A stretch of DNA of 64,000 bases, taken from Planctomycetota bacterium (GTDB lineage Bacteria > Planctomycetota > UBA1135 > GCA-002748355). Of the stretch, positions 6,236 to 33,266 are shown piece after piece. The stretch spans positions 1-64,000 of the forward strand of contig JALUUL010000076.1 of the NCBI GenBank assembly GCA_027021385.1. Reading direction: 5' to 3'. Every line of letters starts with the position of its first letter. Positions within the stretch are counted from its first letter, which is position 1. Both the position numbers and the translations under genes were made by a program. Under the pieces are notes generated by a model, which did no database searches, was not told the DNA's origin, and saw nothing but the letters and a program-made list of their open reading frames with translations.

Positions 6236-6460
6236 TCAATCCCCGAGAGCCTCGAGGATGCGTGCGTGCTCGGGGAAGCCCGAATCGTCCCGGTTCTTGT
6301 GCCAGATCGTCGTCCCGTCGGCCACGACGATGAAGTCCCCGCCTCCGCCGGGGATCAGCTCGATCTCGGCCTCGGGGTGCCGTTCACGGATCGCGGCGGC
6401 CAGACCAGTCGCCTGCGGTTCATAGTTTCAAGCGCTGCAGTATTCGATCGAGATCTTCAT
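6236..6460 (-). CDS. SelW/Rdx-family selenoprotein with in-frame UGA (Sec)
   Basis: 74 residues when the UGA at 6430-6428 is read as selenocysteine: M-K-I-S-I-E-Y-C-S-A-U-N-Y-E-P-Q-A. This gives the C-x-x-U redox motif (C8, U11) in exactly the place where SelW/Rdx proteins carry C-x-x-U or C-x-x-C. The rest also fits the small thioredoxin-fold family: I-P-G-G-G-G-D-F at 36-43, V-A-D-G at 46-49, I-W-H-K, and G-F-P-E at 61-64. GGAG lies 9 bases before the ATG. A hairpin follows the UGA at the expected distance (see 6393-6416). Conventional gene callers stop at the UGA and miss the gene. Probable thiol redox protein; partner unknown. Same strand as the phosphodiesterase-like gene 103 bases upstream. 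Confidence 0.8.
6393..6416 (-). promoter_or_regulatory. Putative bacterial SECIS hairpin after the Sec UGA
   Basis: In the mRNA, bases +12 to +35 after the UGA can fold as GC(A)GGC-GA...UC-(UG)-GCC-GC around a small loop. U-G-G-U-C-U falls 21-26 bases after the UGA. The E. coli fdhF element has A-G-G-U-C-U in its loop at nearly the same distance. The exact loop register is uncertain and the first two loop bases do not perfectly match the consensus G rule. Fold drawn by hand. Confidence 0.5.
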
Positions 6461-6563
6461 CCTTGGCTCTCCTGCTTGGATCCCCGGTCGGTCGGAAGAC
6501 CAGGGATCCTATCGGGCGCGGCGGGGGAGTGTCGAGAGCCGAGGCGGCCGGGGGAGCGGGGAG

Positions 6564-28154: not shown

Positions 28155-28229
28155 TGGCTACCCGGCCTGGACTCGAACCAGAACTAGGAGTACCAAAAAC
28201 TCCTGTGCTACCGCTTACACCACCGGGTA
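28155..28229 (-). tRNA. tRNA-Gln (anticodon UUG)
   Basis: 75 nt including an encoded CCA. Acceptor stem UACCCGG/CCGGGUA with U1-A72 as usual for tRNA-Gln, discriminator G, and anticodon stem GGAGU/ACUCC around loop UUUUGGU, giving UUG. T-arm contains GGUUCGAGUCC. It shares about 20 identical bases of the T-arm region with the neighbouring tRNA-Gln, so one arose from the other by duplication. Confidence 0.93.
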
Positions 28230-28273
28230 TCGGCCGGAGGCGCCCGGGCGGAGGGCGCGCCTGCGGGCGATGC

Positions 28274-28302
28274 GGCCGGCGCCGCGGGGAGCGGCGCCGG
28301 CC
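28274..28302 (-). repeat. Perfect 12-bp hairpin between the two tRNA-Gln genes
   Basis: Arms GGCCGGCGCCGC and GCGGCGCCGGCC with a 5-base loop (28286-28290). It begins one base after the CCA end of the upstream tRNA-Gln. No T-run follows. It could be a 3' processing or anti-readthrough structure, or simply a very stable hairpin. Confidence 0.6.
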
Positions 28303-28303
28303 C

Positions 28304-28378
28304 TGGTTACCCCGCCTGGACTCGAACCAGAACTAGAAGAACCAGAATCTTCTGTGCTACCGATTACACCACGGGGTA
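28304..28378 (-). tRNA. tRNA-Gln (anticodon CUG)
   Basis: 75 nt with encoded CCA. Acceptor stem UACCCCG/CGGGGUA, discriminator A, and anticodon stem GAAGA/UCUUC around loop UUCUGGU, giving CUG. First of the two tRNA-Gln genes in transcription order; 74 bases separate it from the UUG gene. The pair covers both glutamine codons, with CUG matching the CAG codon favoured by this GC-rich genome. Confidence 0.93.
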
Positions 28379-32937: not shown

Positions 32938-33105
32938 ACGGGGTGTTCTGGCTCGCGATTCATCCTCCACGGGCGGCCTTCCCGGGCTCCTTCCTCCGAG
33001 GAAATCGCCCAGTGGCGGGCCTGTAGGGGCCCCACCCGTTTCGTCCTCGCTCACAGCGGCGGGCCCGCGCCGGATTCACACCGGACTTCCCACCGATCGA
33101 GCTTC
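32938..33105 (-). promoter_or_regulatory. Cobalamin riboswitch
   Basis: On the minus strand the conserved core appears in order: GGUGGGAAGUCCGGUG (about 33094-33079), GAAUCCGG, GCGGGCCCGCCGCUGUGA (about 33068-33051), GCCACUGG (about 33017-33010), CGGGAAGGC (about 32983-32975), GGAUGAAUC (about 32966-32958) and the B12 box AGCCAGAACACC (about 32953-32942). These match the adenosyl/hydroxocobalamin riboswitch family point by point. Usual effect: repression of the downstream gene when cobalamin is bound. The sequence between it and the ATG contains GGGACTTCC, which can pair with GGAAGTCC at the 5' side, a possible switching helix, plus GAGGAGAAGGAA as ribosome site. Confidence 0.95.
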
Positions 33106-33188: not shown

Positions 33189-33266
33189 TGGTCGGGCAGC
33201 GGGGATTCGAACCCCGGACCTTCGGCTCCCAAAGCCGACGCGCTAGCCAAGCTGCGCCACTGCCCG
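33189..33266 (-). tRNA. tRNA-Pro (anticodon UGG)
   Basis: 78 nt including an encoded CCA. Acceptor stem CGGGCAG/CUGCCCG with discriminator A; anticodon stem UCGGC/GCCGA around loop UUUGGGA, giving UGG; T-arm GGGGUUCGAAUCCCC. It sits upstream of the riboswitch on the same strand. Confidence 0.95.

Follow-up and report, generated by a model that had tools for sequence, protein, structure and literature searches.

A SelW-like selenoprotein gene with an in-frame UGA codon and a putative bacterial SECIS hairpin in a Planctomycetota genome

A short gene on the minus strand of the window (the whole 64,000-nucleotide stretch of DNA that was analyzed) is almost certainly the gene of a small SelW/Rdx-family redox protein that has a thioredoxin fold and a Cys-x-x-Sec motif, in which the UGA at codon 11 would be decoded as selenocysteine (Sec) by means of SelB and a hairpin. 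A preliminary description made from the sequence letters had proposed this reading, and it is supported here by the family match, by covariation in the bacterial SECIS (bSECIS) hairpin, by the presence of the Sec machinery and by homologues that continue through the UGA. SelW-like selenoproteins are an established and abundant bacterial family, known since 2005, and the gene described here is an ordinary member of it.

The selW-like gene occupies positions 6236-6460 (minus strand) and comprises 74 codons, with ATG as the start at 6460 and TGA as the stop at 6238-6236, as assigned from its translation and from matches to Pfam Rdx and NCBIfam TIGR02174. A single internal TGA is present in the frame (6430-6428, minus strand); it is codon 11 and, according to the translation and the alignment of homologues, corresponds to the U of the motif C8-S-A-U11. 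Translation thus bore out both the 74-codon minus-strand frame with one UGA and the placement of this UGA at the U of C-x-x-U, as they had been described before. With U for Sec, the predicted protein reads MKISIEYCSAUNYEPQATGLAAAIRERHPEAEIELIPGGGGDFIVVADGTTIWHKNRDDSGFPEHARILEALGD. A ribosome-binding site, AGGAG, is visible in the sequence 8 nt upstream of the ATG (6469-6473, minus strand). Further upstream, a sigma-70-like promoter candidate scoring 9/12 (6506-6535, minus strand) is a match to the consensus only, shuffled sequences giving a mean of 0.0.

When Cys was substituted for Sec, the protein matched Pfam Rdx with an E-value of 1.9e-17 and 63.7 bits (cut-off 22.6) over residues 2-72 of 74, in agreement with the whole-length SelW/Rdx similarity claimed for it earlier. 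The Rdx match is also obtained with just the 63-residue part that follows the UGA (E-value 4.9e-10), and therefore the assignment is not created by the start of the frame. The NCBIfam model TIGR02174 (SelT/SelW/SelH) was also passed, with 7.1e-13 and 48.6 bits against a cut-off of 34.2. The score to NF041051, the SelTWH_Campy equivalog whose model is named '(seleno)protein', was 82.3 bits, narrowly under the curated cut-off of 88, and for this reason the protein was not filed under that model. An AlphaFold2 model built from 31 sequences (mean pLDDT 92) has a thioredoxin-like Rdx fold, with the CxxU motif closing strand 1 and preceding helix 1. Its best PDB matches are the SelW-related proteins 2fa8, 2obk and 2oka, at a TM-score of about 0.9, and the solved Rdx relatives found by sequence include 2fa8 and 2ljk. 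Both the fold and the position of the redox motif are shared with mammalian SelW (mouse SelW 2npb, TM-score 0.79) and with MIEN1, also known as C17orf37 (2ljk, TM-score 0.77). However, MIEN1 carries Cys at the motif in the alignment where the present gene carries UGA, and the SECIS of eukaryotic SelW lies in the 3' UTR, according to a passage of PMC1088965, whereas here it would lie inside the coding frame. The same source, in the part that treats the SelW-like family, attributes to it a redox activity and a link to glutathione. By analogy with the family, the protein would act in thiol/selenol redox chemistry, its partner being probably glutathione or thioredoxin.

Homologues of the gene were collected from a scan of GTDB genomes, in which 80 of the 90 loci that passed were taken; among these 80 the closest named relatives are Planctomycetota MAGs with 69% and 64% identity. 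Within the same class, an Rdx match was found in 120 of 151 genomes. A total of 143 class-wide matches were counted by eye, and 139 of them have at least one in-frame TGA, the position of which was mostly not located; the remaining four consist of three sequences that have TGC at the site and no TGA, and one fragment that stops short of this codon. An alignment of 123 sequences was then assembled from the window, the 80 GTDB loci, the best-scoring 30 of the 143 class matches and 12 hand-picked class matches, the latter already known to contain one TGA. Since some loci repeat, 116 of the 123 sequences are distinct over a 95-base stretch. The aligned sequences have UGA at codon 11 in 120 of 123 cases and UGC in three, and all of them continue past this codon, contrary to what would be seen if the homologues ended there. 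In the 80 GTDB loci, which were not selected by codon 11, the codon is UGA in every case (80/80). Downstream of the UGA, the changes that separate the gene from its near relatives pile up at third codon positions; for instance, comparison with the nearest relative gave 8, 6 and 21 differences at positions 1, 2 and 3, respectively.

These data bear directly on the possibility of a Cys-type Rdx gene broken at the TGA, either by a nonsense mutation or through a sequencing error. A single change from TGC to TGA would suffice to produce such a broken gene, and TGC is indeed the codon in the three exceptional relatives. However, a UGA shared by 120 of 123 sequences from several phyla, a frame that stays conserved beyond it with differences biased to third positions, and a covarying hairpin (see below) all stand against this explanation; the conserved UGA refutes it for practical purposes and leaves it next to no probability.

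Among the class genomes, second copies were also recorded. In 23 of the 120 genomes with an Rdx match (counted by eye) there is a second match, often longer and lower-scoring, with an in-frame TGA. A Cys-form Rdx gene with a largely lost hairpin occurs in three genomes of one genus, each of which also has a second Rdx match containing TGA; a Sec-to-Cys switch after duplication is a possible origin of this Cys-form gene. For the genomic context of the selW-like gene no conservation was found: searches with four surrounding window genes in 122 relative loci returned one weak histidine-kinase match (35.6% identity over 73 aa) at one locus, and evidence for an operon is therefore absent. A search of a phage collection gave no match.

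The hairpin described previously downstream of the UGA is present. Its core (6395-6413, minus strand), supported by the fold and by third-position covariation, is formed by a 7-position stem that joins 6413-6407 to 6401-6395 and closes on the small apical loop GGUCU (6406-6402). Six of the seven positions are paired in the window, and the remaining one is an A-C mismatch. The minimum-energy fold of the window sequence alone adds an outer extension of three more pairs (6392-6417, minus strand), the complete hairpin being CGC-A-GGCG-A-CU, loop GGUCU, GG-C-CGCC-GCG. The folding energy of this single sequence was unremarkable when compared to dinucleotide shuffles (z = 0.71), with 156 of 200 shuffles folding equally well or better, and the stability of the hairpin in one sequence was accordingly rejected as evidence. 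An Rfam search of the stretch gave no SECIS match and three hits at chance level.

Support for the hairpin is derived from comparison across relatives rather than from the single-sequence fold. In 113 relatives that carry the UGA, standard pairs fill 86.6% of the cells for the seven core pairs; with one side of the stem shifted by 1 to 4 bases the figure is 26-53%. Three of the stem pairs join third codon positions. Codons were swapped solely between sequences that share the amino acid in question, which leaves all proteins unchanged. The observed pairing total in the 113 relatives was 685, against 607 (sd 6) in these shuffles and 625 (sd 5) when the swaps were confined to strata of similar GC content; none of 1000 shuffles reached the observed value in either case. 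When all 153 third-position pairs within codons 1-19 after the UGA were ranked, the three hairpin pairs took ranks 1, 2 and 3 (z 11.3, 5.1 and 3.9), with an sd of 1.16 for all pairs except the top two. The strongest of them, pair 20-32, is standard in 107 of 113 relatives, where about 63 are expected from GC-stratified synonymous shuffles. In a thinned set of 58 sequences with less than 75% DNA identity this pair is formed in 54, by the types CG, GC, TA, AT, TG and GT. These controls do not fully remove kinship, though kinship acts on other third-position pairs too. Position 2 of the loop is G in 97% of the 116 sequences. Little of the stem is left in the three TGC sequences, as expected if it serves Sec insertion. 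The bSECIS check proposed earlier thus gave a positive result through synonymous covariation; the structure is selected beyond the protein code, which points to a bacterial SECIS, and it has the form of a hairpin right after the UGA whose small apical loop contains G.

A further point of comparison is the bSECIS of E. coli fdhF, where a UGA is likewise followed by a hairpin with the identical loop bases GGUCU, in a protein unrelated to SelW. The spacing, previously described as that of fdhF, was found to differ by one codon: the GGU of the loop begins 24 nt after the first base of the UGA here and 21 nt after it in fdhF, the sequence used for the comparison being a 100% match to fdhF. It is conceivable, though rather unlikely, that the Sec form of the SelW family is all but fixed in this class and that the bSECIS covariation is enough to define a SelB recognition rule (a loop that is mostly [A/G]GUYU and one codon further than in fdhF), which would be a geometry particular to the family or lineage, unlike that of E. 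coli.

The genome that contains the window (86 contigs, 93% complete) encodes the full set of factors for Sec decoding. All four genes that had been named for checking were found: selA (465 bits), selD (349 bits), selB (283 bits, or 308.9 with neighbours in its frame) and selC, the gene for tRNA-Sec (78 bits, anticodon TCA, that is, UCA). The genes selA and selD adjoin each other on one contig. At least five further genes of the genome carry UGA at a catalytic-type position, one of which is selD; the SelD protein is itself a selenoprotein candidate, its motif CAGU containing the single in-frame TGA of the selD match, which lies directly beside selA. A search for UGA in five more families (formate dehydrogenase, AhpC-TSA, CMD, Thioredoxin_2 and OsmC) added four matches with one TGA each. 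These candidates are a peroxiredoxin with the motif TPTU, a thioredoxin-like protein with WUGPC, an AhpD-like protein with CFYU, and a second thioredoxin-like protein with UANC, the match of which is below the family cut-off. In each of the four the UGA replaces what we take to be the catalytic Cys. The view that SelW is the only Sec gene besides selD was rejected in light of these four genes. None of the eight formate dehydrogenase matches contains an in-frame stop, and by this stop count the formate dehydrogenase of the genome would not be a Sec protein; no match to OsmC was obtained in the same genome.

The content of the genome also allows a general code change to be weighed, in which UGA would be read as another amino acid, such as Trp, instead of Sec. 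The frame of the selW-like gene opens under such a code as well. However, the genome has a tRNA-Sec with anticodon TCA along with selA, selB and selD, the selW-like frame itself terminates at a TGA, and the in-frame UGAs of the genome fall at Cys-equivalent catalytic sites and not at Trp sites, so that reassignment of the codon appears extremely improbable.

The third alternative is a regulated stop, where the UGA mainly yields a 10-residue peptide or acts as a switch that follows the selenium supply. Bacterial Sec insertion has a low efficiency and depends on the supply of selenium, and for this reason some truncated product must exist. However, downstream of the UGA the gene is constrained at the level of the protein, which requires regular full-length translation, and the probability of this third alternative is minimal. 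Decoding of the UGA as Sec, in contrast, would proceed along the known bacterial pathway, on which SelB binding to the hairpin and the insertion step are modelled here. SelD would supply selenophosphate, which SelA would use to make Sec-tRNA(Sec). Once the ribosome reaches the UGA at codon 11 of the selW-like frame, SelB carrying Sec-tRNA(Sec) would bind the hairpin just downstream, with its GGUCU loop, and deliver selenocysteine; the remaining 63 codons would then be translated, and the final UGA would keep its normal meaning as a stop.

In all essential respects the gene resembles known bacterial SelW-like selenoproteins (PF10262 Rdx; TIGR02174, NF041051), with which it shares the family over its whole length, a CxxU motif with UGA at the U and an in-frame bSECIS candidate with G in a small loop; no essential difference from them was noted for this member, 69% identical to the closest listed Planctomycetota MAG. 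According to passages of PMC1088965, SelW-like proteins outnumbered all other bacterial selenoprotein families in the Sargasso Sea set, where 48 such genes, along with bacterial SECIS elements, were described. Similarly, the relevant portion of PMC2398784 places them among the most abundant families in the Global Ocean Sampling set, with 427 selenoproteins versus 56 Cys homologues, and an excerpt of PMC1794560 notes that Cys homologues of the family are few or lacking in organisms that use Sec. SelW-like proteins appear as predicted with high confidence in a 2026 review (PMC13188914), and selenoproteins in Planctomycetes are described in part of PMC4807772. The present analysis brings one more SelW-like selenoprotein to light, from a genome in which Sec is apparently used in at least five other genes, and it illustrates that reading of the raw sequence alone can correctly identify a recoded gene. 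For annotation purposes, the selW-like frame has to be kept whole across codon 11.

Several other RNA features were noted in the window. A cobalamin riboswitch (Rfam RF00174, 66.3 bits) was found at 32942-33091 on the minus strand, with a tRNA-Pro gene (33189-33266) some 100 bases away, and two adjoining tRNA-Gln genes with TTG and CTG anticodons are located at 28155-28378 on the minus strand.
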